A stretch of DNA of 49,950 bases, taken from Castellaniella caeni NBRC 101664. GTDB lineage: Bacteria > Pseudomonadota > Gammaproteobacteria > Burkholderiales > Burkholderiaceae_B. The stretch covers positions 1-49,950 of the forward strand of contig NZ_BCWN01000026.1 in assembly GCF_001592225.1 (NCBI RefSeq), in the 5' to 3' direction. Of the stretch, positions 388 through 49,950 are shown one piece after another. Below the pieces are notes generated by a model. That model was not told the DNA's origin. It did no database searches and saw nothing but the letters and a program-made list of their open reading frames with translations. Each line of letters begins with the position of its first letter. The first letter of the stretch is position 1. A program made the translations under genes and the position numbers.

Positions 388-3300
388 TTAGTGCGAATCG
401 ACCTTCAGCTTGCCGTCGTTGATGAGGCTGTTAATCAGGGCGGACTGGCCTTCAGGCGAAGCCAGATCATGGCCCGCCGCCAAATCAGAGCGCCCTTCCA
501 GAACGATCTGCTGGTCGTAGCCATTACCTGCGGCGTTCAGGGTGCCGTGGGAACTGACATTGATGACAGTATTACTGCCTTCGACGGAGACATGCAGGTA
601 CTGGGTCAGATCGCCCGGATGAGCTTCTTCACCTTGCAGCAGGCTGCTGATATCCAGCACATCCTGATGAGTCTTGTCCATATCCCCGTGAACGCCATAC
701 GTGTCGCCCTGGCCGAAATCCTTGATCGTATCGACCGGGATTGGGCCGGTGACGGCATCGTGGCCGCCATTCGTCCATTGGTCGTTGAGTTCCCATTTGA
801 AGGTATCGTGGCCGTCGCCGCCGATCAGCGTATCGCTGTCGGCGCCGCCGATCAGGATGTCGTTACCCGCGCCACCATACAGGACGTCGTGGCCGGCGCC
901 GCCGTTCAGCGTGTCGTTACCGCCCTGGCCGAACAGGAGATCGTCGCCATCGCCGCCCAGCAGCGTATCGTCGTGGCCCTGCGAACCGTCGGAGGTGCCG
1001 AAGCTCACCGCATGCTGCTGGATGAACTGGTACACATCCGCGTTGCTGGGATCATGACCCAAGCCTTCAGCCAGGAAGGCCTTCACGGTATCCAGCCCGT
1101 TCATGTCATCTAAGCCGTCCGGCTTGTCCTTCCCTGTCCAATCCAGCCAGGACACGTTCAGTTCGTCACCGAACAAGATATCGTTGCCTGCCCCGCCATG
1201 GAGGATATCGGAACCAAGGCCCGCATGCGTGCTGTCCTGGAAGCCCTTGTCCAAGGCATTGAGCAAGTCCTGCATGCTGCTGTCCTTGCTGTCATCGACC
1301 AGGGTGACTTCGCCGATATGACCAGTCAGCGTCGTTGACCCAGAATAGCTGCCACTGCCGTTGGGCAACTGAATACTGCCATCGCCCAAAACACCCGATT
1401 CAGTCGTGTTATCGAAGAATTTGAGCTGATTCTCGGATACTCCAGCCCCGATGCCGATAGCGTAGACATCGGTCCCGGTATGTGCCAGCAAGGAATTGTA
1501 AGCATCAATGCCGGCCTGCATATCATGAGCATATGTATCCGTACCGTGTTGCGAATGCGCGCCATTCGTCATCGTCGGATCGCCGTCAGTCAGGAAGAAG
1601 GTCAGGTTGCCATAACCATCCTTAGCGTGAACGCCTGAGCCCGAGGTCTTGCCGAACCAGGTTTCCGCCGCTTCGAACGCCGCCTGATAGTTGGTGTAGT
1701 AGCCCGGATTGGAACTGCTGACCGCCAGATGGTCGATCGCGTTTTTCAAGACTTGCAGGTTGTGGGCTTCGTCGGCGCTATTCAGCACGACCGTCACAGG
1801 CGCCGCCGCCTTGCTGCCGAATCCGATCAGCGTGACGACCAGCTCGCCATCGTGGGCGGCCAGTTTGTCGGCAAACCCCGCCAGCGCCTGCTTGGCAATC
1901 GCCAGGCGATCGATGTCCTTCCCGTTCTTGCCTGCGTTGTTCTCCTGCATGCTGTAGGACAGGTCGACCAGCAGGGCAATGTTGTAGTTGCCTGCAGGAA
2001 CCGGCTCGCCCGGCACCATGCCGCCCGGATCCCCCACCAAGACGTCGTGCGAATCCGCCCCGTTGCCGGAAGCCGGCAGGGTGTCGTTGCCCGACGTGCC
2101 CACCGTCTCGGTGTAGTGGTCGATGGTGGCGGGAACTTCCGTCGTCGCGGCATCGTGGTTGGCAGATTCTACCGAGGTGACGCTGGCCTTGAGAGCGGAC
2201 AGATCAGGTGCGCTATCGCCCGCCCCAAGAGGCGCCGTCAGGTGCAGATTGCTCAGGTCAGTCCCGGCCGGGAATGTCCATGTGTGGTTGGCGCCCGCCT
2301 CGCCTACAAGATGCCCGTCACCATCGGTGAACGTGGCGTCTTTCGGCAAGCCGCCGACGGTGATCGCCGTCAGGGTTTCGCTGCCATCAGTGTCGGACAG
2401 TTGGGCCGACAGATCGACGTCGTAGGTGGCGTGACCTTCGGTGGTTTGAACAGTGGTATTGATCCCGTCTCCCCAAGTGCCACCATCACCGAATACGAGG
2501 GCTTCGATGCTTTTCAGCTCGATATATGCCTTCGTTTCATTATCAATGACTTTGAGATCCCATTGACCGTTTTTGTAAGGAGAAACAATGGTGTACTCGT
2601 CGGCACTCTTAGTGAAGTAGACGACATCATATCCAGCCTTGCCATCGATTTTCCCATCAGCGCCATTGCTAGCCTCTTTGATGTCTCCCTCGACGACAAA
2701 GATATTGCTGTATTTAGCTTGTATCGTATTCGAACCTTGATTTTTATCGCTGTTCGGATAATCGATGACCGGCACATTGCCGATGATCTTGCCATCGGAT
2801 CCAAAGCTGAATGACCCGCCGCTGAACTCAACCAAGGTGGTCTTGCTACCCTCGGTAATCACCGGCTCGCTCAGCGAGAAATGCAGCACGGGCGCGTCCG
2901 CCACCGGCGTGATGTCAATCGACAGCGTGGCCGTATCGCCGGCCGGATGACCATCCGCGCCGACGGCCTGGTAAGTCAGTTGGGCGTAGTTGTCGCTCGC
3001 GTCGCCTGCCGCGCCGCCGGACTGATTGGGCTCGGGCACGAAGCGCAGATGACTGGCGCTGCTGGCGTCGAATTGATCGCCGACCTTGACGTTGAACCAG
3101 ACATTCCCGTCTTCGGAATACTGCAGCACGCCATGTTCGGGCAGCGACGTGATGCTGATCGCCGCGCCATCGCCGCCGGTCACGCCGAAGCTGGCCCAAT
3201 TCAGGCTGATGATCGTGTCTTCATTAGCGCTGACTTCGCTGCTTTCAAGCGTGGGCAACTGAGGTGTCGTGTCAGGCAGCGTAATGTGAATCGGCACATT

Positions 3301-6300
3301 TACAGCATCGCCATCACCATCGGTGACGACAGCACCCAGATCGAGGACGGGCTGACCGTTGGAGCCATGGGAGTCGGAGCCAGATTGATACCCCAGGTCG
3401 ATCCCGACAACCGAGTAATTGCTGTCGCCAGTCATGCCAGGTTGACCCCCGGCTCCCAGCTTGATTTCATGGATGCCGTCAGGATAGCCGGTCAGGTCGA
3501 TCGTGATGAAATCAGCGGAAGATCCCGATACCGTGATGGGCGTATCGCTGCCATTGACGTAGACCAGCGCCGTTTCGCCGGTCTTCAGATCGAAAATCTT
3601 GATGTGGGCTTCGGTGGCCTTAGCATCAGAACCTGCATCAGGTTCAATGGAAAACACCAACCGCTCGCCTGCTTTACCCCAGTTGTTGTTGATTGCTGTA
3701 TTGTCATTTCCGTCGTTCTGGATGCCCAGACGACCTCCGTCTCCAGAGATACCATTAGAATGCGGCGTTCCAGAAACCCCGGACACGGTCACGGAGAACG
3801 GCGCATCACCCATATCTACCGAAACGCCACCGTGCGTGTTCGTGAACGAGGCCGAGCCCGTACCCGTCGTCACACCACCGCCACCCACGGCATCAATCGC
3901 CCCATTCACGGTCACGGTATAACTGCCATGGTCGCCGGCCCCGCCCGTCAGGCTGGGGACGATGGTCAGAATCGGAGTCTGGCTGGCATCGCCATCCTTG
4001 ACGGCGATGACACTACCGTCGGCGCGGGTCACATAGACCAGGTTGACGCCGCCGGAAGTCAACTGTACAGAGGTATCACCGACCTGCCCCATTACGGGTT
4101 GACCATCCAGGCTGGAACCGTCCGTACGGGTGATCGCCACATGCGCGCCTGCGTAATCGGCGCCCACGGAAACGCCCAGGCTGCCGGTCACGGCCGCGCC
4201 GACGTCCACACCTTCCAGGTTGACATCATGATCCACGCCCGAGATGACTTCCGGACTGTCGTCTTCGATGCGGATGGTGATGGTGCTGTCCGCCCCCGAA
4301 TGCCCGTCCGATACCGAGACCGGAATCGTCAGGTCGATGACGTCTTCCTGATTGATGCCCAGGTGATCCAACGGGCCGGATTGCGTGACTTGATAGCCCG
4401 TCACGGCGCCATCAGAATCGTGCTGCAGTTCGACTGTCAACACGACGCGATAGTCAGAGCCCGTACCAGTGTGACCAATCAAATTGCCGCTGCCATCCAG
4501 CGTCCACGAAACCGGCTGCCCCTGAGAGGAAAGCGGATGAGCGTCAGCATCGCTGGAATCTTTAGTCACCAGATCGTCGCCATCCCGATAGCCGTAGGAC
4601 ACCCCCACTCCGGTTCCCAGCGTGACCGTCAGGTCTTTCAGCGCGGTATCGGGATCGGACAGGTTGATGGCGCCGGTGGCGATCGTGGCACTGGCGTTGT
4701 CTCCAAACGGCGCATCCTGGCCATACTGCCCATTGCCGCCATCGGGGTTACCGTGCGGGGTCAGGTTTTCATCCGTGACGACGGCGCTGACGCCTTCAAC
4801 GTTGGGGTCTGCAGGGATGTCGATGCTCGGCCCCAGGTCGGGCAGATTGATCGTCAGGTGCCCTGTCGCCGGATCGCCATCGGCGTCGGTGACGGTGTAG
4901 TCGAAGACGAGATGACCATTGCCCGCCGCGCTGCCGTTGGCATCGATGGCACGGTACTGGTCAAACGTCCAGTTACCATCCTCGCCCATCGTGAAGGAAA
5001 ACACCTTCTGATGCCCATCCTGTGTGTAGGCGGTCAGGGTCAGGCCATCCTGCTCTATGGTCAGGCTGCTGTCGCCGGATTGGACGCCTGCCAAGGAGAC
5101 GGCCACGCCCAGGCCACCTGCACCGTCCGCGCCATATTGCACATCCACGTCGCCGCCCGCCGTCGCCAGCACGGTATCAGCTGCCGACTCCGAACCATGG
5201 AAAGTGATGCTCTTCAGGGCGTAGTCGCTGTTGTCTGTCTTACCGTTCTTGGTGTCATTGGAGTTGGGCGTGTCGTCCACAGCCGTGAATCGGACTTCGT
5301 CAAAAACGATACCGTCACCCGCGCTCAGGCCTGTCCTGGTGAAATCACCGCCCTGATCTGCGACCAGTAGGACGGATGTACCGACTTCCTCACCGTTCAA
5401 GTAGAAGCTGACCCGTCCCTGTTCGCCCTCTCCTTGGAAGAAAGAGGACAGTTCCACGTCGATGCTGCTGGCCGTCTTCCCGTCATCCAGATGAATGTTC
5501 AGGGATTCGGTGCCACCGCGATTACCCCAGCCACTGAAATCCCGATAACTGATTTCCGAACCCAGGGCATAGTAGGGCTCGTGATCCCCAGTATCAACGC
5601 CCAGGCCGCCAGCACCCTGCGTGATGGTAGCCGAGTGGCCGTCTTCCCAGCGACCACCATGCTTCTTCGACACATAATCGAAGCCCGTGGCGCTCAGCGT
5701 AATACCCAGGCCGTCGGACGTGAACGCTGTATTGCCGTTGGTGCCCTGCAGATGGGCAAAGTCGAAGGTAGCCGAGAAATCGCTGGCTGCAGGCTGATCC
5801 TCAGTCAATGTGGCTGTCGTCTCGTAATTCGTGGCATACGGACTGTCGTCCTCAACACGAACTGTGATGTACTGCGTGTCGGATGTACCGCCGTCGCCGT
5901 CGCTCACACTGACCGGAATCTTCAGGTTCAGCACGTCCTCGTGGGCATGCGTGCTGTCCGGGTGATCGATGGCGCCCTGCAGAGTGACCGTGTAGGTGTA
6001 TTGCTGCTCGTTGCCGCTGATCGCACCAGGATGAAGCTGAATCTGAATGATTTCCTGGTAGTCCGCCTGGCCCACTGTTCCGGTATAGCCCTGCAAGACA
6101 CCACTATCAGCATCGAAATGCCACTCGACGGCTTCGCCATGCGATGTCAGGTCATATTCCGTGCCGGTAGACAGGCTGAGGCCCTTGGCAGTACCCGCCA
6201 GCAACACAGTCGCGTCGTGCAGATCGCTATCGACATCCTTGATGGTGAAGGAGCCACCAGCAATCGCCTGATTGCTGCCATGCGTCCAATCCCCGCTGGG

Positions 6301-9300
6301 CTGGTTGTTACCGTGACCGGGGATGCCATTGTCGTAATTGGTGAGGGTCGTCAGGCCTTCTTCAGAGACGGCGGCAAACCCGCCATGCGAGCCAAAATCC
6401 AGCGTGGGCGCATCGTTGACGCCCGTCACCTTGATCGTCAGCGTGGCGGTGTCAGTGTCGCCATCGCCGTCGCGCAGGGTGTAAGTGAAGACTTCCTTGC
6501 CATTGCCGTTATCGCCGCCCAGGGCCTGCAGGGCTTCATAGCGATCGTGATTTTCAGTCGTATCCGTGACCAGTGTATAGGTGTAGCTGCCATCCGGGTG
6601 GATGGTCAGATCGCCGTATTTGCCCTCGATGGTCGTGCCGGCGCCACTATTGTCCTGCACATCCGACCCACCACCTGCGGTGGCAATATGGGAAACCTCG
6701 GCGCCATCGGCACCCGTCGTATCGCGCCCAGGATGGCCATGGCCGCTACCGCCATCCACGACATTGCCGCCCACAGAAAGGCCTTCCTCGGAAATAGAGG
6801 TGTAGTCGTTCTTGGCGTCCGGCGCATCGTCCTTGATGGTGATGTTCAGGTTCTGCTGGTTGGAATCGCCATCGCGATCCGTGGCCGTGATCTGGAACTG
6901 ATCCTGCGTCTGGTCGCCAGACACGTTCGGCGCCGAGGTCAACGTGTAGGTGTAGCTGACCGTGATGGTGCCGTCCGCCGCCTGGGAATAGCCATTCAGG
7001 ATCATCGTGCCGTACTGGGTGGTGATCGTCTGAGGATGAGCAGCGTCCAAGGCCTCCAGATCAGACCGGCTGATCTGGAAGGTCTGGTTACCATCGGCAT
7101 CCGTGTAGCCAATCTTGACCGCAGCCGAATCGCTCAGGCCGTCCAGCGCCTTGATGGTGAAGTGGGACTGCACCAAGGTATCGGCCGCATTCGGATGGCT
7201 GCCATCGGTCAGGCCGCTTTCATAGACCACGCGGTCGGTCGTGACACCCTGCACGGGTGCGCCATGATCCTTGGGCACATTGACCGTGACACCGTCGTCC
7301 TTGCCCTGGATATTGATGGTCAGGGTCGAGGTAGACGTATCGCCGTCGTTGTCGGTGATCGTGTATTCGATCTGGAAGCTTTTGGTCTCGCCCGCACCCA
7401 GGGCCTGAGTCGCCAGGCTGGAATTGTTCAGATTGAAAGTCCAGTCGCCGGGGATGAGGCCGGGCTTGAAAGTGCCGTAATCCGAGATATTGGCGCCATC
7501 GTCAACGGCGTTGCCTGAACTGTCTACTTCGACAAAAGTGCTTCCCCACGCCACCATATGCCGCAGATTGGGGCCGTCAGCGCCGAAATCGTCGTTGCTC
7601 AGGACATTGCCCCTGACATGCGTTTCCGAGTAACTGCCATCTTCCAGCACGTGGGTGGAATCCACGGAGGCCTGCGGGGCATCGTCGTGGATGGTGATCG
7701 TCAGGAGATTGCCGGTAGCCTCTGCGTCGTAGGTGTCCTTGACCACAATGGGCACCTGCAGCGTCAGGTCGTTTTCTCCGCCACCGGCAGCATGCTGAAC
7801 CGGAGCCAGCAGCTCGACCTGGTAGGAATAGCCATCCGTCGGGTTGCCATCGAGCGTGACTTTGATCACATCGCCCAGAGCGTAGAACTTGCCCAACGCC
7901 GTGATGCCGATCTGTCCAGTCAGCATTTGGCCGTCGTCAGACAGTACCCAGTGCACTGGCAAGCCGCTAGACGTCAGCGACGAGGTTGGTTCGCCCAGCG
8001 TCACGGAGGCGACCGCATCGCCCTTGTCCCCGTCGTGCACCGTAAAGGTGCCGCTGGCATTCGTATTTACCGGATCGCCGGATTCCGGGAGCCCGGCCCC
8101 ATGCGGCGGAAGAAGCCCGGCGCTCAGGCCTTCTTCGGTCACGAATGCATTGGCATTGGCGCCATCTTGACCACCGAAGGTGATCGTGGGCACGTCATTG
8201 GTGCCGTTGACGGCGAGCGTCAGCGTCGCGGTGGAGGTGTCGCCATCGGCGTCGGTCACGGTATAGGTGAAGACGTCCACATCGCCGTTGCCTTCACCCT
8301 GACCCAGGGCCTGGACGGCAAAATAACGATCGTCTTCGGGATCACTGACTAATTTATAAACATAGAAGCCATGGTCGGTGAGAAACAGGTCGCCATACGT
8401 GCCTTGAATGACAGTGCCTACACCACCGACCGCAGTGTCGCCCGAAGCGACGCCACCAGCCTGAACGCCGGTGACGGTGGTGTTGTCATCCGCGCCTAGG
8501 GAGTCCCTGCCATCGGCGGGAGATGTTTCATGCCAACCAGTAATGACGTTGCCCTTGGCGATCAGATCAGTGTCTTCTGTGACCTGATTGGCATCGTTGT
8601 TGGCAAACGGCTGGGTGTCCAGGATGTTCGCCACCAGATCTGAGGATGTGGCCCGGCCAAGCCCATCGACCACGGTGATACCGATGGTGTCGAACACGGA
8701 CTCGTCATTGCCTGTGGCCTGATTGTGCGTCTGGGCGCCATCGGACCAGTAGGTGTAATCCACGACGCCAGTGGCGGGGTTGTACCCTGTGATGTGCAGC
8801 AGCCCGCGATCGGTGTCGATCACGATGGGGTCATCTACCGAGGCACCGGCCAGTTCGGTGGCCGAGATGACACGAACAACCGGGTCAGCCGTCGAGCTGC
8901 CGCCCCCCGGGTTGGTGCCCTCGGGTGCGGACGGAGCCGATTCAGGCACGTAGGTGAACTGCAGGGAACCCAAGCCAGCTGCCGCAGAGATGGCGAACGT
9001 CCCCGAATACCCGTTATGGGTCGGCGTGTTGTCAGCGGGCGTCGAGAGCAGCGCGAAAAGGGCTGGAGATTGGGACTGGTGAGTATTGTTCTCCAAAATG
9101 GAGAACGTGCCCGGGACAATTGAGGGATCTTGCCCAGCGCCGCCCGGATTGTCATTTCCATCAGGAATATCAATCGTCGGCCCGGCGGGCACGGCAGCGT
9201 CCGCCGCCCCGGCAACCCCGCCCAACTGCACGAATTCCGGCGTTTCCACGCCCGGACGCGGATACGCCAGATCCAGCGGCGACACGGATTCTGTGATGGC

Positions 9301-9687
9301 AGCCAGACGCGTGAAGCTGGCACCACCGCCGCCACCACCAGTCAGCACCGCCGCGGTCGGGTCGAGGGTATCAAACGGGTCTTGACCCGCATCCAGCGCG
9401 GCCAGTACCTGGTCAGCCACCGGGTCAGCCGGGGGCGCCACCGCGTTGTCCGCAGGCTGCGGCTGGGCCTGGGCCAGATCGTCGGTCACGACCATGTCGG
9501 TGTTCTGGCCGACGATGACGGGAGGAACACCCGTGGCCTGCAGGGTGACGCTGGCGCCACTGTCCGTCAGGATATGGGCATCGACGGGAACCCGCATGCC
9601 TTCGTGCAGCGCAACGAGGTTGCCATCAGCATTGCGCATCCAGGCTTTGCCTGTGACGTGGGTGATGAGAACGGTATCGGTAGCCAT
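388..9687 (-). CDS. Giant RTX biofilm adhesin (LapA/BapA-like), type I secreted
   Basis: This encodes a surface adhesin of about 3099 residues, exported by the type I system encoded just upstream. I chose the ATG at 9687 (MATDTVLITH) because AGGGGA lies about 8 bases before it; the frame stays open 21 codons further. Residues 1-70 look like the retention module of LapA-type adhesins. TAAV at about 111-114, followed by a glycine run, resembles a LapG protease site. Then come many VCBS / cadherin-like / T1SS-143-type repeats (recurring DADGDTST and VTEEGL-like motifs). A lower-GC module lies at about 2290-2390. A von Willebrand A domain follows, with MIDAS motif DLSYS at about 2570. RTX nonapeptides (GGAGNDILFG type) occupy about 2820-3015, and the C-terminus resembles type I secretion target domains. 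Role: cell-surface and cell-cell adhesion in biofilm, inferred from family. LapD and LapG are not in the window. Confidence 0.93.
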   Translation of the reverse strand: MATDTVLITHVTGKAWMRNADGNLVALHEGMRVPVDAHILTDSGASVTLQATGVPPVIVGQNTDMVVTDDLAQAQPQPADNAVAPPADPVADQVLAALDAGQDPFDTLDPTAAVLTGGGGGGASFTRLAAITESVSPLDLAYPRPGVETPEFVQLGGVAGAADAAVPAGPTIDIPDGNDNPGGAGQDPSIVPGTFSILENNTHQSQSPALFALLSTPADNTPTHNGYSGTFAISAAAGLGSLQFTYVPESAPSAPEGTNPGGGSSTADPVVRVISATELAGASVDDPIVIDTDRGLLHITGYNPATGVVDYTYWSDGAQTHNQATGNDESVFDTIGITVVDGLGRATSSDLVANILDTQPFANNDANQVTEDTDLIAKGNVITGWHETSPADGRDSLGADDNTTVTGVQAGGVASGDTAVGGVGTVIQGTYGDLFLTDHGFYVYKLVSDPEDDRYFAVQALGQGEGNGDVDVFTYTVTDADGDTSTATLTLAVNGTNDVPTITFGGQDGANANAFVTEEGLSAGLLPPHGAGLPESGDPVNTNASGTFTVHDGDKGDAVASVTLGEPTSSLTSSGLPVHWVLSDDGQMLTGQIGITALGKFYALGDVIKVTLDGNPTDGYSYQVELLAPVQHAAGGGENDLTLQVPIVVKDTYDAEATGNLLTITIHDDAPQASVDSTHVLEDGSYSETHVRGNVLSNDDFGADGPNLRHMVAWGSTFVEVDSSGNAVDDGANISDYGTFKPGLIPGDWTFNLNNSSLATQALGAGETKSFQIEYTITDNDGDTSTSTLTINIQGKDDGVTVNVPKDHGAPVQGVTTDRVVYESGLTDGSHPNAADTLVQSHFTIKALDGLSDSAAVKIGYTDADGNQTFQISRSDLEALDAAHPQTITTQYGTMILNGYSQAADGTITVSYTYTLTSAPNVSGDQTQDQFQITATDRDGDSNQQNLNITIKDDAPDAKNDYTSISEEGLSVGGNVVDGGSGHGHPGRDTTGADGAEVSHIATAGGGSDVQDNSGAGTTIEGKYGDLTIHPDGSYTYTLVTDTTENHDRYEALQALGGDNGNGKEVFTYTLRDGDGDTDTATLTIKVTGVNDAPTLDFGSHGGFAAVSEEGLTTLTNYDNGIPGHGNNQPSGDWTHGSNQAIAGGSFTIKDVDSDLHDATVLLAGTAKGLSLSTGTEYDLTSHGEAVEWHFDADSGVLQGYTGTVGQADYQEIIQIQLHPGAISGNEQQYTYTVTLQGAIDHPDSTHAHEDVLNLKIPVSVSDGDGGTSDTQYITVRVEDDSPYATNYETTATLTEDQPAASDFSATFDFAHLQGTNGNTAFTSDGLGITLSATGFDYVSKKHGGRWEDGHSATITQGAGGLGVDTGDHEPYYALGSEISYRDFSGWGNRGGTESLNIHLDDGKTASSIDVELSSFFQGEGEQGRVSFYLNGEEVGTSVLLVADQGGDFTRTGLSAGDGIVFDEVRFTAVDDTPNSNDTKNGKTDNSDYALKSITFHGSESAADTVLATAGGDVDVQYGADGAGGLGVAVSLAGVQSGDSSLTIEQDGLTLTAYTQDGHQKVFSFTMGEDGNWTFDQYRAIDANGSAAGNGHLVFDYTVTDADGDPATGHLTINLPDLGPSIDIPADPNVEGVSAVVTDENLTPHGNPDGGNGQYGQDAPFGDNASATIATGAINLSDPDTALKDLTVTLGTGVGVSYGYRDGDDLVTKDSSDADAHPLSSQGQPVSWTLDGSGNLIGHTGTGSDYRVVLTVELQHDSDGAVTGYQVTQSGPLDHLGINQEDVIDLTIPVSVSDGHSGADSTITIRIEDDSPEVISGVDHDVNLEGVDVGAAVTGSLGVSVGADYAGAHVAITRTDGSSLDGQPVMGQVGDTSVQLTSGGVNLVYVTRADGSVIAVKDGDASQTPILTIVPSLTGGAGDHGSYTVTVNGAIDAVGGGGVTTGTGSASFTNTHGGVSVDMGDAPFSVTVSGVSGTPHSNGISGDGGRLGIQNDGNDNTAINNNWGKAGERLVFSIEPDAGSDAKATEAHIKIFDLKTGETALVYVNGSDTPITVSGSSADFITIDLTGYPDGIHEIKLGAGGQPGMTGDSNYSVVGIDLGYQSGSDSHGSNGQPVLDLGAVVTDGDGDAVNVPIHITLPDTTPQLPTLESSEVSANEDTIISLNWASFGVTGGDGAAISITSLPEHGVLQYSEDGNVWFNVKVGDQFDASSASHLRFVPEPNQSGGAAGDASDNYAQLTYQAVGADGHPAGDTATLSIDITPVADAPVLHFSLSEPVITEGSKTTLVEFSGGSFSFGSDGKIIGNVPVIDYPNSDKNQGSNTIQAKYSNIFVVEGDIKEASNGADGKIDGKAGYDVVYFTKSADEYTIVSPYKNGQWDLKVIDNETKAYIELKSIEALVFGDGGTWGDGINTTVQTTEGHATYDVDLSAQLSDTDGSETLTAITVGGLPKDATFTDGDGHLVGEAGANHTWTFPAGTDLSNLHLTAPLGAGDSAPDLSALKASVTSVESANHDAATTEVPATIDHYTETVGTSGNDTLPASGNGADSHDVLVGDPGGMVPGEPVPAGNYNIALLVDLSYSMQENNAGKNGKDIDRLAIAKQALAGFADKLAAHDGELVVTLIGFGSKAAAPVTVVLNSADEAHNLQVLKNAIDHLAVSSSNPGYYTNYQAAFEAAETWFGKTSGSGVHAKDGYGNLTFFLTDGDPTMTNGAHSQHGTDTYAHDMQAGIDAYNSLLAHTGTDVYAIGIGAGVSENQLKFFDNTTESGVLGDGSIQLPNGSGSYSGSTTLTGHIGEVTLVDDSKDSSMQDLLNALDKGFQDSTHAGLGSDILHGGAGNDILFGDELNVSWLDWTGKDKPDGLDDMNGLDTVKAFLAEGLGHDPSNADVYQFIQQHAVSFGTSDGSQGHDDTLLGGDGDDLLFGQGGNDTLNGGAGHDVLYGGAGNDILIGGADSDTLIGGDGHDTFKWELNDQWTNGGHDAVTGPIPVDTIKDFGQGDTYGVHGDMDKTHQDVLDISSLLQGEEAHPGDLTQYLHVSVEGSNTVINVSSHGTLNAAGNGYDQQIVLEGRSDLAAGHDLASPEGQSALINSLINDGKLKVDSH

Positions 9688-10040
9688 GTGGGTATCCCCT
9701 GTGTGAATGAGGTCGTGCCGGGGCGCGTGAGGCGCTTTGACGGCAATCATGGGGAGAATGCTACAGATGGAAAGAAGTGCTGCCTATTGTCGTGTCAGCC
9801 AATAGGGCAGGGATTTGGAGCAAGCAATAACCGGGATGGGCATGTCGGTTGAGCGCGCTATTTGCATCCCTTGGCAGGGCTGCCAGTTGGCTGCGATTGC
9901 TGCGGTTCGGACAATGGGCATCCCTCTATCTGGATGCCGACCATGCCTGACCTCAAGTACATCGTTGCTCATGCGGAGAGTTTGCTCATAAGCACCCGCC
10001 CGAAGTTGGTTATGGCTCCCCGACCGCGTTTTGCTTTCTT
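9688..10040. other. Intergenic region between adhesin and brnTA
   Basis: This stretch separates the divergent adhesin and brnT genes and should hold the adhesin promoter. I find no box pair on the minus strand good enough to name. Small open frames here have no ribosome site and no recognisable protein features. Confidence 0.5.
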
Positions 10041-27812: not shown

Positions 27813-29042
27813 CTACGCCGCATCCCCCCTGAAGTCCAGCACGACCGCACCGGTCACACTCCGATCCAGGTAGTCCGACCACCACTGCATCATTTCAGCC
27901 CTGGGCTTCAAATACAGCGCATGGTTGTACGCGGCGCTCGTATCGTCGCGCTCTTGGTGCGCCAGTTGCAGTTCGATGTGTTCGTGAGGCCAGCCATGCT
28001 CATGCAGCACGGTTGAGGCAATACCTCGGAATCCATGGCCGGTCATCCGCCCCTTGTACCCCATCCGCTCCAGCGCCTTGAGGATGGTGTTGTTCGACAT
28101 GGGCTTTTCGTGACTCCGCTCACCCGGAAACAACAAGGCACGATGCCCTGTCAGGGTCTGTAAATTGCGGAGCAACTGCACCGCCTGATGCGACAGCAGA
28201 ACGATGTGCGGGGTCTTCATCTTCATCCGACTGGCAGGAATGTCCCAACGCGCATTGTCTAGGTCGAACTCCTCCCAGCGTGCTCCAATCAACTCGCTGG
28301 TACGAACGAACGTCATCGCCATGAGCTTCATCGCCAGACGAGTCACGCTGCTGCCTTGGTAGACCTCGATATGCCGCAACAAGGCGGGAAGCTCCTTGGC
28401 ATCCAGACGGGCATAATTTTGCTTCTTCCGCGCCGTCAGAATGTCACCGGGCCGGATCTCCGTCGCAGGGTTTCGGGTTGCATGCCCATGCGCGATGGCA
28501 TAGCGGAACACCTGCCCGCAGGTTTGCAAAGAACGCTTGGCAATGTCGAGCGCCCCTCGTTCCTCAATCGCCTTGGTCATCCGCACCAGCTCGGGAGCCT
28601 GAATCTCATCGACTGGCCGCTTACCCAGGACTGGAAATACGTCCGCCTCCAACCGGCGCATGACATACCCGGCATGTCGTGCGCTTCGGGTCGGCGACCA
28701 ATGCTTCCACCAAGCCTGTGCGACCTGCTGAAAAGTCGTCTTGGCTTGCGTCGCTTGCTGTTTGCGGTCAGCGACGGGGTCTACCCCTGTCGCCAGCAGC
28801 TTTCGCGCCCTCTGGTGCGCTTCTCGGGCTTCTGCCAGGGTGACTTCGGGGTATACCCCCAGCGCCATGACCTTCTCCTTGCCCTCGAAGCGATATTTCC
28901 AGCGCCAATACTTGCCCGTCTGGTTGACGAGCAGGTACAAGCCGCCCCCATCCGAGAGCTTGCGTGGCTTTTCTGCGGGCTTTTCCTTGCGAATTTGGAG
29001 ATCGGTCAGAGGCATCGTGGGGGTATCTGAATTGGGAGGCAT
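27813..29042 (-). CDS. P4-type tyrosine recombinase (island integrase)
   Basis: The 409-residue integrase has the DUF4102 N-terminal arm-binding domain (LSDGGGLYLLVNQTGKYWRWKYRFEGKEKVMALGVYPEV), a SAM-like core-binding domain and the catalytic domain. Visible active-site residues are Arg in FVRTSELIGARWEEFD, HGFR (His-x-x-Arg) in GMTGHGFRGIAS-like context and the Tyr in AAYNHALYLKPR. It directs insertion at the adjacent tRNA-Ser. The first ATG at 29042 is used; MPLTDLQIRK at 29015 is the family-typical alternative. The C-terminus is intact. Confidence 0.93.
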   Translation of the reverse strand: MPPNSDTPTMPLTDLQIRKEKPAEKPRKLSDGGGLYLLVNQTGKYWRWKYRFEGKEKVMALGVYPEVTLAEAREAHQRARKLLATGVDPVADRKQQATQAKTTFQQVAQAWWKHWSPTRSARHAGYVMRRLEADVFPVLGKRPVDEIQAPELVRMTKAIEERGALDIAKRSLQTCGQVFRYAIAHGHATRNPATEIRPGDILTARKKQNYARLDAKELPALLRHIEVYQGSSVTRLAMKLMAMTFVRTSELIGARWEEFDLDNARWDIPASRMKMKTPHIVLLSHQAVQLLRNLQTLTGHRALLFPGERSHEKPMSNNTILKALERMGYKGRMTGHGFRGIASTVLHEHGWPHEHIELQLAHQERDDTSAAYNHALYLKPRAEMMQWWSDYLDRSVTGAVVLDFRGDAA

Positions 29043-29047
29043 AGCTG

Positions 29048-29067
29048 GATACCCCCAAAACTACCCC
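29048..29067 (+). repeat. Short direct repeat beside the integrase (candidate arm site)
   Basis: Identical to 19199-19218 at the other island end. It lies just upstream of the integrase start, so integrase bound here could also control its own transcription. Confidence 0.55.
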
Positions 29068-29110
29068 TAATCGTCCTGGATCGCAATAGTCTGCATTGGA
29101 CGATCCTGGC

Positions 29111-29186
29111 AAAGAAAAAGCCCTAGAGCGTTGATTCTCTAGGGCTTTCAAGACCGTCTTGGACGTTCTTGGATGGTTCGCTGGCG
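29111..29186 (+). repeat. Right direct repeat (attR-like), reaching into the tRNA-Ser 3' end
   Basis: This is the right partner of 19056-19131. It contains a perfect hairpin (CCCTAGAG ... CTCTAGGG) that can serve as a terminator for tRNA-Ser, and it ends in the CCA end of the tRNA gene. Confidence 0.75.
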
Positions 29187-29274
29187 GAGACGGAGGGATT
29201 CGAACCCTCGATGCGGGTATAAGCCGCATGCTCCCTTAGCAGGGGAGTACCTTCAACCACTCGGCCACGTCTCC
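29182..29274 (-). tRNA. tRNA-Ser(GCU)
   Basis: On the minus strand the 93-nt sequence begins GGAGACGTGGCCGAGTGG and ends CGTCTCCGCCA, giving a 7-bp acceptor stem and an encoded CCA. The anticodon stem-loop is CTCCC-CTGCTAA-GGGAG with anticodon GCU. A long variable arm (GCATGCGG..CCGCATC) marks it as a serine tRNA, and the T loop is GGGTTCGAATCCC. It is the insertion site of the neighbouring island and remains intact. Confidence 0.95.
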
Positions 29275-46232: not shown

Positions 46233-47141
46233 ATGAGACAAGGCTTCCGCCACATTCGTGCTTTTCTGCAGGCCGCACGCCTGGGCAGCTTCACCCAGGC
46301 CGCACAATCACTGCACGTCTCGCAGCCCGCCCTGACCGTGCAGATTCGCCAGCTGGAAGAAGAACTGGGCGTGCGCCTCTTCGACCGCGATCGGCGCCAG
46401 GTGAGCCTGAGCCAGGAAGGGCGCAACATGCTCGCCCCGCTGCAAAGAATCCTCGACGAATTCGAGGGAGCCATCGAACAGGCGCACGACCTGGCCGGGC
46501 TCAAGCGCGGCCGCCTGACGGTGGCGGCGCTGCCCTCCATCGCCGCCGCCTGGCTGCCCGCCCTGATCCACCGGTTTCACGCCGCGCATCCCGGCATCGA
46601 CATCCACGTGGCCGACGTGCCCGCCGCCCGGCTGCAGCGTCTGGTCAAGGACGAAGAGGCCGACCTCGGCATCGGCCCCTGGGTGAACCGCGACCGCGCC
46701 CTGCAGTTTCGTGAACTGATGGAAGACAGCCTGCAGGTGTTCTTTCCGGCAGAGCACCCGCTGGCCGGCTTGCGGCGCCCCACGCTGCCCCGCCTGACCC
46801 GCTATCCCCACGTGCTCACCAGCCCGGGCACCAGCGTCCGGGAAGCCGTCCACCGGGCGCTCGAAGCAGGCAACCTGGACATCGAGGTCGCCTGCGAGGT
46901 GGCGTACCTGTCAACGGCCATTGGCATGGTACGCGCTGGCCTGGGGATCGCCATCCTGCCGCTCTCCACCCTGCACGCGGCGCCTTGTGACGGCCTGCTG
47001 CACCGGCCCATCGCCAACCCGCACCTGCACCGCAAGCTGGGGCTGATCACCGCCAAGCGGCGTACGCCGTCAGCGGCGGCGCAGGCGTTCATCGAGCTGC
47101 TGCTGACCCAGGATCTGCGTCTTTCAGCGCCAAGCGACTAG
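46233..47141 (+). CDS. LysR-family transcriptional regulator
   Basis: The 302-residue regulator has the LysR helix-turn-helix at about 5-62 (FLQAARLGSFTQAAQSLHVSQPALTVQIRQLEEELGVRLFDRDRR) and a periplasmic-binding-like effector domain from about residue 90. It is divergent from the CitMHS/AtuA operon and most likely controls it in response to the transported or degraded acid. The end overlaps the convergent EamA gene by 4 bases. Confidence 0.92.
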   Translation: MRQGFRHIRAFLQAARLGSFTQAAQSLHVSQPALTVQIRQLEEELGVRLFDRDRRQVSLSQEGRNMLAPLQRILDEFEGAIEQAHDLAGLKRGRLTVAALPSIAAAWLPALIHRFHAAHPGIDIHVADVPAARLQRLVKDEEADLGIGPWVNRDRALQFRELMEDSLQVFFPAEHPLAGLRRPTLPRLTRYPHVLTSPGTSVREAVHRALEAGNLDIEVACEVAYLSTAIGMVRAGLGIAILPLSTLHAAPCDGLLHRPIANPHLHRKLGLITAKRRTPSAAAQAFIELLLTQDLRLSAPSD

Positions 47142-48052
47142 TGCTGCCTGCGCCGCCGACGCAGCCATTGCAGGCCTGGTTCGAGCATGACAGTGCCCAC
47201 GATCACCATGACCCCCAGGTAAAACAGCAGGTCGAGCTGCTGCTGCTCGCCCAGGACGGGGATCGCCAGCACGACCGCATAGACGGGCTCGAGGTTGGTG
47301 ACCATCTGTTGGGTGAACACCGTGATCGAGCGCAAAGCCACCAGCAGCAGCGCCAAAGGCAAGGCCGTGAGCACGACGGCAAAAACAATGAGCAGCAGCG
47401 CATCGCGCCCATGCGGAATGGAAAAACTGGCCTCCGCGGCAGGCAGCAGGCCGATGGCTGGGGTGAGAAACAAGGCCCCCGCCCCCAGCTCGAGACAGGT
47501 GGCGCTCAGCGGCTGCGTGCGACTGACCAGCAGCTTGTTCAAGCCGCTGAAGCCCGCCAACAGCGCCGCCGACAACAGCCCCACGCCAAGCCCCAGGTAC
47601 ATGCCCCGGGGAATTCCCCCCGCCACCAGCATGACACCGGGGATCACCGCCACAGCCAACATCAGGTTGGAACGCTGGTAGGGCCGGCGCGTCAGCAAGG
47701 GCCCAAACACCGCGATGAACAGCGGCGTGGTGCCCAGGCAAATGGCCGCCACCGAAGCATTGGTGAGCTTGACGGCCAGGTAGAACAGCGCCCAGGTGAT
47801 CGCCAGAAGCACACCGGCCCCGCTGCAGGCCGCCACCAGCCGCCAGGGCAGCTTGCGAATGCCGCGCCACGTGGCGGGCAGCAGCAGCAAGGCAGCCGAC
47901 GCCAGCAGCATGCGCCACCACACCAGCGTGACAGCATCCAGCGTGATCAAGCGCCCCATGATGGGCGTAAACCCCCACAGCACCACGCAGAAATGGATGA
48001 GCAGATACCCACGCGCCGCCGATGGTTTGGGTTTTGTTGAGATGGCGAACAT
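47138..48052 (-). CDS. EamA/DMT-family transporter
   Basis: The 304-residue membrane protein has ten hydrophobic segments in two EamA repeats (IHFCVVLWGFTPIMGRLITL; and LPLALLLVALRSITVFTQQMVTNLEPVYAVVLAIPVLGE). It is probably a metabolite exporter. I take the ATG at 48052 (MFAISTKPK); the frame remains open into the CRISPR array but that part is made from repeats. It is the last gene before the array. Confidence 0.88.
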   Translation of the reverse strand: MFAISTKPKPSAARGYLLIHFCVVLWGFTPIMGRLITLDAVTLVWWRMLLASAALLLLPATWRGIRKLPWRLVAACSGAGVLLAITWALFYLAVKLTNASVAAICLGTTPLFIAVFGPLLTRRPYQRSNLMLAVAVIPGVMLVAGGIPRGMYLGLGVGLLSAALLAGFSGLNKLLVSRTQPLSATCLELGAGALFLTPAIGLLPAAEASFSIPHGRDALLLIVFAVVLTALPLALLLVALRSITVFTQQMVTNLEPVYAVVLAIPVLGEQQQLDLLFYLGVMVIVGTVMLEPGLQWLRRRRRQH

Positions 48053-48148: not shown

Positions 48149-48300
48149 CGGGTAATCCCCACGCACGTGGGGAACACCCGGACATGATCGCCGAGGCCCA
48201 GCGCCGCGGCGGTTCATCCCCACGCACGTGGGGAACACGGACGGCGACATGAACGGTGAGTTCTGGCACGACGGTTCATCCCCACGCACGTGGGGAACAC
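48149..48300 (-). repeat. CRISPR block 1: three reversed repeats
   Basis: Repeats at 48149-48177, 48210-48238 and 48272-48300 read in the sense direction on the minus strand, with centre TG in their own orientation (CA on the plus strand). The first has two changes in its final eight bases. Confidence 0.95.
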
Positions 48301-48332
48301 TTCGTGAGCGGCGGCAGCAGCGGTGTGATGGC

Positions 48333-48364
48333 CGGTTCATCCCCACGCACGTGGGGATGAACCG
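48333..48364. repeat. Hybrid CRISPR repeat H1 (32 nt, palindromic)
   Basis: It starts CGGTTCAT and ends ATGAACCG around the core CCCCACGCACGTGGGG: 15-bp arms with a CA centre. It gives the 3' handle half to the spacers on both sides, so it is a divergent junction between reversed and forward blocks. Confidence 0.95.
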
Positions 48365-48397
48365 CCCTTGAGCAGCGTTTCAGCCTCGGCCGTGTTC

Positions 48398-49036
48398 GTG
48401 TTCCCCACGCACGTGGGGATGAACCGTGGAACTGGCTGACGCCATGATTCGCATTCTGGTGTTCCCCACGCACGTGGGGATGAACCGGCGTGGTGGGAAC
48501 AGTTGACCAGCCTGGAACTGTGTTCCCCACGCACGTGGGGATGAACCGCCGTTGAATACAGCCGTATGTTCATCCGTGACGTGTTCCCCACGCACGTGGG
48601 GATGAACCGAGAAAACAAGGTTGAAACCTATCTGAATGACCGTGTTCCCCACGCACGTGGGGATGAACCGCCACGAATATGATGCACGTTGGCGCTCAAC
48701 TTGTGTTCCCCACGCACGTGGGGATGAACCGCTCGGACTGTCGGGAACCGCCGCTGTCGCCGCGTGTTCCCCACGCACGTGGGGATGAACCGTTATCGTC
48801 GATTTCCTCGAATCGGGTGTTCCAGTGTTCCCCACGCACGTGGGGATGAACCGGCCGCATTCTCCGGTGCCGGGGAACTGCAGGCGTGTTCCCCACGCAC
48901 GTGGGGATGAACCGCCACCACTTTGCAAGAACACCCCCAGCCATTGGTGTTCCCCACGCACGTGGGGATGAACCGCCGCACCGTCCGCCTACCAGGCGAG
49001 CAAAGTAGTGTTCCCCACGCACGTGGGGATGAACCG
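48398..49036 (+). repeat. CRISPR block 2: eleven forward repeats
   Basis: Repeats start at 48398, 48459, 48520, 48581, 48642, 48703, 48764, 48825, 48886, 48947 and 49008. All are identical 29-mers with centre CA on the plus strand, which is the opposite centre to block 1 when each is read in its own sense direction. Confidence 0.95.
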
Positions 49037-49069
49037 GCAACCGGCGTAACTCCCGAGGTTGATGCCGCC

Positions 49070-49095
49070 GTGTTCCCCACGCACGTGGGGAACAC
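49070..49095. repeat. Hybrid CRISPR repeat H2 (26 nt, palindromic)
   Basis: GTGTT at both ends around the core CCCCACGCACGTGGGG, ending GAACAC: 12-bp arms with centre CA. It is a convergent junction; neither side carries the ATGAACCG handle. Confidence 0.95.
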
Positions 49096-49128
49096 GACCC
49101 AATACTGCGCCAGGTCGGCGCCGGCGTT

Positions 49129-49402
49129 CGGTTCATCCCCACGCACGTGGGGAACACATCCAGGACGAAGACCAGCCTGCCGCTGCAGCCGGTTCATCCC
49201 CACGCACGTGGGGAACACCGAGAAAAAGCTGATAGCGCCTGCCCACAAGTTCGGTTCATCCCCACGCACGTGGGGAACACGCCTCTTTCTTATCGGACAC
49301 CCAGATGGCCGTCGGTTCATCCCCACGCACGTGGGGAACACGGGCCAGCATCGGGGCCGTCATACCCTGCAGGCGGTTCATCCCCACGCACGTGGGGAAC
49401 AC
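49129..49402 (-). repeat. CRISPR block 3: five reversed repeats
   Basis: Repeats start at 49129, 49190, 49252, 49313 and 49374, all 29 nt, with CA on the plus strand as in block 1. Confidence 0.95.
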
Positions 49403-49434
49403 ATGGCCCTCGTCTCTCCGAGGTGTCACGCCTA

Positions 49435-49466
49435 CGGTTCATCCCCACGCACGTGGGGATGAACCG
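49435..49466. repeat. Hybrid CRISPR repeat H3 (32 nt, palindromic)
   Basis: Identical to H1. It joins reversed block 3 to the two forward variant repeats. Confidence 0.95.
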
Positions 49467-49498
49467 ACGGCAGCCCAGAAATATGCCCTGACCTTCGC

Positions 49499-49589
49499 GT
49501 GTTCCCCACGAACGTGGGGATGAACCGTATTCGAGCATCGCGCCCAGGACAGTCACCTTCGTGTTCCCCACACATGTGGGGATGAACCG
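49499..49589 (+). repeat. CRISPR block 4: two forward variant repeats
   Basis: The repeat at 49499-49527 has centre AA. The repeat at 49561-49589 has CCCCACA and TGTGGGG arms around CA, a paired change that keeps the hairpin intact. Confidence 0.95.
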
Positions 49590-49622
49590 CGACAGTCGAT
49601 GACTGACAAATACAACGACGAC

Positions 49623-49648
49623 GTGTTCCCCACATGCGTGGGGAACAC
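49623..49648. repeat. Hybrid CRISPR repeat H4 (26 nt) with unequal arms
   Basis: The left arm is the variant GTGTTCCCCACA, as in the repeat just before it, and the right arm is the common CGTGGGGAACAC. The centre becomes TG here and stays so to the window end. It therefore looks like half of one repeat joined to half of another. Confidence 0.95.
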
Positions 49649-49681
49649 GCGCACGTCGCCCGCCATGTCCTCACCGCCGAG

Positions 49682-49710
49682 CGGTTCATCCCCACGTGCG
49701 TGGGGAACAC
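49682..49710 (-). repeat. CRISPR block 5: one reversed repeat
   Basis: A single 29-nt repeat in reverse orientation with TG on the plus strand, so centre CA in its own sense direction, the same subtype as block 2. Confidence 0.95.
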
Positions 49711-49742
49711 GTATCGACCTTCAAAGCCATTAAGGGCGACGA

Positions 49743-49774
49743 CGGTTCATCCCCACGTGCGTGGGGATGAACCG
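49743..49774. repeat. Hybrid CRISPR repeat H5 (32 nt, palindromic)
   Basis: Same outer arms as H1 and H3 but with centre TG, so it is the reverse complement of those two. Confidence 0.95.
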
Positions 49775-49806
49775 CCGGTTGATGTTGGCGATTTCGTTGC
49801 CCTTCT

Positions 49807-49950
49807 GTGTTCCCCACGTGCGTGGGGATGAACCGAACCCGGCGTTGCGCGTGAACTGGCTGGTCAGGTGTTCCCCACGTGCGTGGGGATGAACCGCAGT
49901 CCCAAATTTCCCATGAAGCAGTACCAGAGTGTTCCCCACGTGCGTGGGGA
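49807..49950 (+). repeat. CRISPR block 6: forward repeats to the window end
   Basis: Repeats start at 49807, 49868 and 49929 (cut by the window). They carry TG on the plus strand, the subtype of blocks 1 and 3 but in the opposite orientation. The array continues beyond the window. Confidence 0.93.

Follow-up and report, generated by a model that had tools for sequence, protein, structure and literature searches.

Structure of the array and its surroundings

The stretch of DNA that we have analysed, which we refer to as "the window", comprises 49,950 nucleotides from Castellaniella caeni NBRC 101664 and is a complete contig (C26) of a 3.28-Mb draft genome that is divided into 60 contigs. At positions 388-9750, the minus strand contains an open frame of 3120 aa whose product, with a VWA domain and calcium-binding repeats of the RTX type, is probably a large protein that is secreted or displayed on the surface. 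A tyrosine integrase gene (27813-29042, minus strand) is located 19 kb from the array, beside a tRNA gene (29185-29274, minus strand), and the region 27813-29274 possibly represents an integrated mobile element. The CRISPR array occupies positions 48149-49950, where the contig ends within a repeat; the array is composed of 29-nt repeats and of 32- or 33-nt spacers, and its trailer-side neighbour is the gene of an EamA-family transporter (47138-48052, minus strand).

Each repeat has been parsed as a left arm, a centre and a right arm, and this parsing of C26 bears out the block sizes, the coordinates, the chimeric repeats and the 32-33 nt rhythm of the original prediction: read along the plus strand, six blocks with 3, 11, 5, 2, 1 and 3 members are alternately reverse and forward, and each of the five changes of direction coincides with a chimeric repeat, which measures 26 nt at the forward-to-reverse switches (F/R) and 32 nt at the reverse-to-forward switches (R/F).

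The first block (48149-48300, minus strand) contains three reverse-armed repeats that start at 48149, 48210 and 48272 and have the centre GCAC on the plus strand; the repeat at 48149-48177 is degenerate and probably marks the trailer end. An R/F chimera of 32 nt (48333-48364) is followed by the second block (48398-49036, plus strand), i.e. eleven forward repeats with the centre GCAC and with starts from 48398 to 49008, and a 26-nt F/R chimera (49070-49095) is followed by the third block (49129-49402, minus strand), where five reverse-armed repeats with starts from 49129 to 49374 still have the centre GCAC on the plus strand. After a second R/F chimera of 32 nt (49435-49466), the fourth block (49499-49589, plus strand) consists of two forward repeats, at 49499 and 49561, with the intermediate centres GAAC and ACAT; the next F/R chimera (49623-49648, 26 nt) also has an intermediate centre, ATGC, while the single reverse-armed repeat of the fifth block (49682-49710, minus strand) and the 32-nt R/F chimera after it (49743-49774) have the centre GTGC, on the plus strand in the case of the former. 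The sixth block (49807-49950, plus strand) comprises two complete forward repeats, which start at 49807 and 49868, and a partial third one (49929-49950) that stops at the contig end, directly past the 18-bp shared centre that is described below.

The repeats are of the type I-E type, GTGTTCCCC...GGGGATGAACCG, 29 nt long and spaced by 32-33 nt, with the exception of the chimeras and of one 31-nt spacer that is located on a second contig, C23. All 33 spacers on the two contigs differ from each other; spacers of 33 nt lie beside both F/R chimeras of C26 (four of four), and the F/R chimera of C23 has neighbours of 31 and 32 nt. A type I-E array runs in one direction from leader to trailer, and the array on C26 and C23 does not.

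A second contig end with mixed repeats

A search of the genome for the repeat, with two mismatches allowed, has retrieved one other contig only, i.e. the last 246 bases of C23 (locus L009, 11006-11251), and a DNA search of the genome with the array has given nine matches, all located on C23 or C26. The original prediction had offered, as an alternative, two separate arrays of uniform direction elsewhere in the genome; these are absent from the assembly, and we have rejected the idea of two intact arrays in it, as the repeat (at most two mismatches) and the nine matches are confined to these two contigs, both of which are mixed.

The repeats at the end of C23, on the leader side, have the arm combinations FF, FR, RR and RF, which amounts to two more switches; since these add to the five on C26, at least seven switches are seen over the two contigs, with three F/R and four R/F chimeras. 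The C23 repeats are preceded by an AT-rich stretch (67% AT over 60 bp, versus 38% for the window), and the leader side is flanked by mutS; the AT-rich stretch beside mutS looks like the leader end of the array. The two contigs break off within a repeat or at its border, and when their ends are joined they are one base short of an F/R chimera, so that the C26 array probably continues on C23; from this we infer both the join and the leader orientation of C26. The join, if made, gives four F/R and four R/F chimeras.

Two repeat variants with reverse-complementary centres

The four central nucleotides of the repeat keep their orientation while the arms and the spacers flip. When C26 is turned so as to follow C23, the order of the arms reads >^<v<<v>^<<v>>>>>^<<<<<<<<<<<v>>> (> forward, < reverse, ^ F/R, v R/F), while the centres of the 33 complete repeats on the leader strand, with the degenerate repeat included, are GCAC eight times, then GCAT, ATGT and GTTC, then GTGC 22 times; this order, from GCAC through the intermediates to GTGC, is independent of the direction of the arms. 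The tetranucleotides GCAC and GTGC are reverse complements of each other.

The original prediction that parts of the array have been inverted repeatedly is the best reading of these data, though plain inversion does not suffice. Because inversion of an array with a single repeat variant would turn the centre together with the arms, and the centre is unturned, we have rejected plain inversion of a one-variant array, and two variants must be assumed that have, in forward orientation, the centres GCAC (variant A) and GTGC (variant B). Thirteen unchimeric repeats belong to variant A (2 FF-GCAC and 11 RR-GTGC) and eleven to variant B (8 FF-GTGC and 3 RR-GCAC). The identity between an A repeat in forward orientation and a B repeat in inverted orientation extends over exactly 18 nt, TCCCCACGCACGTGGGGA, whereas that between two A repeats in opposite orientations is only 8 nt long, and seven of the seven switches fall within the repeat centre. 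On the leader side the outermost repeat is of variant A, and on the trailer side the degenerate repeat is of variant B, both in forward orientation, which matches the expectation for ends that lie outside all inversions.

Protospacers and the side of the PAM

The spacer at 48427, in the block of eleven repeats, matches two viral contigs at 32 of 32 positions with AAG on the 5' side, and is also found in three phage records (27, 27 and 24 of 32 positions), where its 5' flanks are AAG, AGG and AAG, respectively. On the same two viral contigs, the spacers at 48549 and 48610 match at 27 of 32 positions each, preceded by AGG and AAG, respectively; the matches of the three spacers are all on one strand. 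Type I-E systems accept AAG and AGG as PAMs. The PAM of these three spacers, all of one block, is located on the 5' side that is set by the local arms, and therefore the spacers have turned together with their half-repeats; if C23 and C26 form one array, this side is the opposite of that which the C23 leader would dictate.

In a scan of 80 related viral loci (1.02 Mb, with a match threshold of at least 75%), only four adjoining spacers have matches (48427, 48488, 48549 and 48610), while 99 shuffled spacers have produced one match against the same loci. The flanks of spacer 48549 in these loci, the two contigs included, are AGG in eight cases, AAG in one and AAC in one, and those of spacer 48610 are AAG in two, CAG in one and CCG in three, AAG or AGG being partly absent in the more distant relatives that these two spacers match. 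Spacer 48488 matches only relatives of the phage that is matched by the other three, and an AAG/AGG-type PAM is absent at four of its four loci. Three of the four adjoining spacers within 48427-48641 thus have matches in a single phage, all on one of its strands, and spacer 48488 matches relatives of it; clustering of spacers on one phage and one strand is typical of primed acquisition.

A degenerate word of spacer 49649 occurs in 12 viral contigs, from relatives of other phages, all of which match the whole spacer at 26-30 of 33 positions, and nine of the same 12 also match spacer 48915 (25-28 of 32); a canonical PAM is absent at the matches of both spacers in these contigs. The best match of spacer 49649 among phage records is located inside a DUF935 gene, and a 21-nt word of it has no match in viral_contigs. 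Scans of viral_contigs with exact words of spacers 49219, 49281, 49711 and 48239 have returned 1, 0, 15 and 2 matches, none of which reaches 74% of the whole spacer. Searching phage and plasmid records with the whole array has yielded mainly repeat or weak matches among the best 60 of 110 and the best 40 of 140 records. Two candidates, locus L118 (26 of 32 to spacer 48178) and an Arthrobacter match (L119), have not been accepted as protospacers.

cas genes, repeat folding and a candidate nuclease

The search for cas genes has covered the models of Cas1 (PF01867), type I-E Cas2 (PF09707) and Cse1 (PF09481), none of which has a match in the genome, which is 99.95% complete. In 14 named genomes that have served as controls, the three models match in 9, 2 and 2, respectively; the Cas1 result weighs most, because the Cas2 and Cse1 models failed to match the E. 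coli control. Orphan arrays exist, and the array on C26 is probably inert without cas genes. The strand of each spacer that becomes crRNA would indeed be changed by inversion, as had been predicted, and this consequence is probably moot, because Cas1, type I-E Cas2 and Cse1 are not found. The direction of an array that is no longer read is under no selection.

The folding energy is -12.9 kcal/mol for the normal repeat, -12.8 for the reversed repeat, -19.9 for the F/R chimera and -26.9 for the R/F chimera, and reversed repeats fold to the same hairpin as normal ones. Spacers in reversed blocks should be useless for interference, because a transcript from the leader bears the complement of the spacer and the wrong repeat arm as a handle.

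Eight of ten genomes of the genus match the SbcD model (TIGR00619) with a score below its cut-off, and the studied genome and genome G005 have no match to it; likewise, 366 aa of the SbcD-like protein of genome G002, used as a query, have no match in the studied genome. The G002 protein that the model detects is a metallophosphoesterase and may not be SbcD, so that a possible loss of a hairpin-processing nuclease in the studied genome is a lead only. The absence of cas matches and that of an SbcD-like protein are correlations within one genome.

Control arrays and pattern searches

Twenty array regions from relatives in the family or the order have been used as controls, of which one (L103) gave no parsed repeats; in the other 19 regions, from 16 genomes, the 726 parsed repeats include no switch and no chimera. 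The outer repeat is matched in five of 199 other genomes, with 182 matches (58, 38, 58, 26 and 2) that have one direction per genome, although the genome with 2 matches says little, having one on each of two small contigs; these one-way matches indicate that the pattern on C26 is not due to chance. The closest EamA homologue among three other loci (L075, 77%) is located in a sequence that has no such array.

The F/R pattern GTGTTCCCC-N8-GGGGAACAC has 26 matches in genome_contigs, a collection in which 84,980 species are represented by one genome apiece and from which near records of the studied genome may be absent, and none of the matches has another half-repeat at array spacing. Among the 26 is a Chloroflexales contig end (L059, 1-120) that folds back at a GTGTTCCCC...GGGGAACAC palindrome, probably an assembly fold-back. 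Among 398 genomes of the phylum, taken without regard to their repeat type, the R/F pattern occurs in one, the studied genome. Of 5426 E. coli genomes, 4219 contain the normal E. coli repeat and none its R/F form; as a control this carries less weight, since the inverted identity between E. coli repeats extends over 7 nt only.

A like-for-like control is offered by genome G187 (L104), where 60 repeats have a perfectly palindromic 18-bp centre and, thus, an 18-bp inverted identity in every pair, with no switch; we have therefore rejected the palindromic centre alone as a sufficient cause. The G187 array adjoins cas1 and cas2, and loss of selection may explain the difference between G187 and C26, which is a single comparison.

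A proposed history of internal inversions

We consider it likely that the sequence represents a real type I-E-like array, apparently without cas genes, that has been inverted internally at least four times, as the seven chimeras require at least four inversions. In the ancestral array that we propose, all repeats would have run in one direction, with variant A (GTGTTCCCCAC-GCAC-GTGGGGATGAACCG) towards the leader, variant B (the same with centre GTGC) towards the trailer and the intermediates between them. As the centres of A and B are reverse complements, any A-B pair would hold the identical 18-bp segment in inverted orientation, and recombination, or template switching by a polymerase, between the centre of an A repeat and that of a B repeat would invert all of the DNA between them. 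Such an inversion could leave a 26-nt F/R chimera at one end and a 32-nt R/F chimera at the other, each spacer would stay with its own half-repeats, and the enclosed repeats would be reversed in order, an enclosed A becoming a reverse repeat with GTGC and an enclosed B a reverse repeat with GCAC. Owing to this exchange of centres together with the reversal of order, the pattern of GCAC followed by GTGC would be preserved however many such inversions took place. With the cas genes lost, the direction of the array would have been free from selection, so that inversions could persist.

We have simulated 20,000 histories per setting for an array of 34 repeats with an A block of 8-26. The centre pattern is intact in 100% of the histories in which only opposite centres exchange, in at most 0.09% of those in which only like centres exchange, and, when any two repeats can exchange, in 5.8% (4 events) down to 0.04% (12 events), or in 6.7% of the 4-event histories with 8 or more chimeras. 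The simulation assumes an A-then-B start, and hence presupposes the ancestral state that it is used to support.

The pattern does not tell apart homologous recombination, annealing and template switching as the mechanism. Template switching between short inverted repeats has been described as inverting the enclosed loop (PMC8604942). Template switching is also a possible source of variant B from variant A.

Alternative explanations

The pattern could be an artefact of the library or the assembly, in which strand-switch chimeras or mis-joins at the near-palindromic centre have combined one or two uniform arrays; we regard this as unlikely. A mis-join at the 18-bp identity would yield the same centre pattern, but the word shared by GCAC and GTGC repeats is only 18 nt long, and since the usual word lengths of assembly exceed this, the chimeric repeats should have been present in the reads themselves. 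The array is indeed broken up between two contigs, each of which terminates within a repeat, yet both ends carry mixed directions, and although the A and B repeats could in principle belong to two arrays of which the draft lacks the remaining ends, the assembly contains no additional contig with a uniform array. An artefact of this kind should also recur elsewhere, and arrays with such chimeras have not been found elsewhere in the collections searched; in the rest of the window, a scan with 12-nt seeds for inverted repeats within 400 nt of each other has found two of 21 nt and no longer ones.

That inversion of the array continues during growth is doubtful; the array would then have become a locus akin to a shufflon with its crossover site in the repeat centre, a clone would contain many arrangements and the direction of the spacer blocks would vary among cells. 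Very improbable, in our view, is an active inversion system similar to a shufflon, in which a site-specific recombinase uses the repeat centre as its crossover site and keeps flipping the array. Serine invertase sites have a polar central dinucleotide and exchange in opposite polarity; the repeat centre does consist of 7-bp arms around the asymmetric dinucleotide CA/TG, and the inferred exchanges join centres of opposite polarity only, but this polarity would also be expected of homologous exchange. A genome-wide search for serine recombinases has found two, with open frames of 209 and 205 aa; these are located on contigs C14 and C11, neither of them on C23 or C26, the C11 recombinase adjoins a frame that resembles a Tn3-type transposase, as judged from its translation, and no dedicated recombinase linked to the array has been found. 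Ongoing flipping is, moreover, not seen in the single assembly.

That Cas1-Cas2 has inserted spacers both ways, so that the pattern stems from acquisition and not from inversion, is scarcely credible: reversed spacers would follow, but integration of a spacer copies the whole leader repeat, which should yield no reverse repeats and no F/R or R/F chimeras, and it is the presence of the chimeras on which this explanation fails, while the spacers between complete repeats, on C26 as on C23, are flanked by half-repeats of one type.

Comparison with known systems

Internal inversion of an array with two variants, the reading that we prefer, retains many characteristics of type I-E arrays: the length and the type of the repeat, the hairpin, the rhythm of the spacers, the AT-rich leader side, the degenerate trailer repeat and the AAG or AGG located 5' of three protospacers. 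Unlike type I-E arrays, the array on C26 and C23 changes direction at least seven times, has chimeric repeats of 26 and 32 nt and two repeat variants with reverse-complementary centres, and is found in a genome without matches to Cas1, type I-E Cas2 or Cse1. In a study of human gut CRISPR arrays, spacer inversions are reported in fewer than 0.01% of related array pairs (PMC11307328), which makes the present array an extreme outlier. Among the papers listed from the open literature on arrays and palindromes (15 of 38 in one search), no title or beginning of an abstract describes a mixed-direction array.

If our reading is true, the near-palindromic repeat that the RNA hairpin requires carries a hidden risk of inversion, and the coexistence of two variants with opposite centres, together with lost selection for direction, may bring it out. 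The behaviour of the centres would then provide a rule for reading such arrays, together with a warning that the order and the direction of the spacers are here unfit as a record of time or for the prediction of strands.

Shufflons and multiple-inversion loci have many short inverted sites with polar centres, between which blocks are flipped through exchange in opposite polarity. The array on C26 and C23 is unlike them in that no linked recombinase is seen, the segments are non-coding spacers and there is no evidence of ongoing switching; it resembles them in the inverted sites with polar centres at the ends of the flipped segments.

The inversion of loops by template switching, as set out in the yeast report (PMC8604942), is similar to the proposed events in that the DNA between short inverted repeats flips, and the more perfect palindromes that template switching can give there may be compared with the chimeras on C26 and C23; the loops described there are a few bp long and are located in yeast genes, whereas in the bacterial array on C26 and C23 the inverted segments would each span several spacers.
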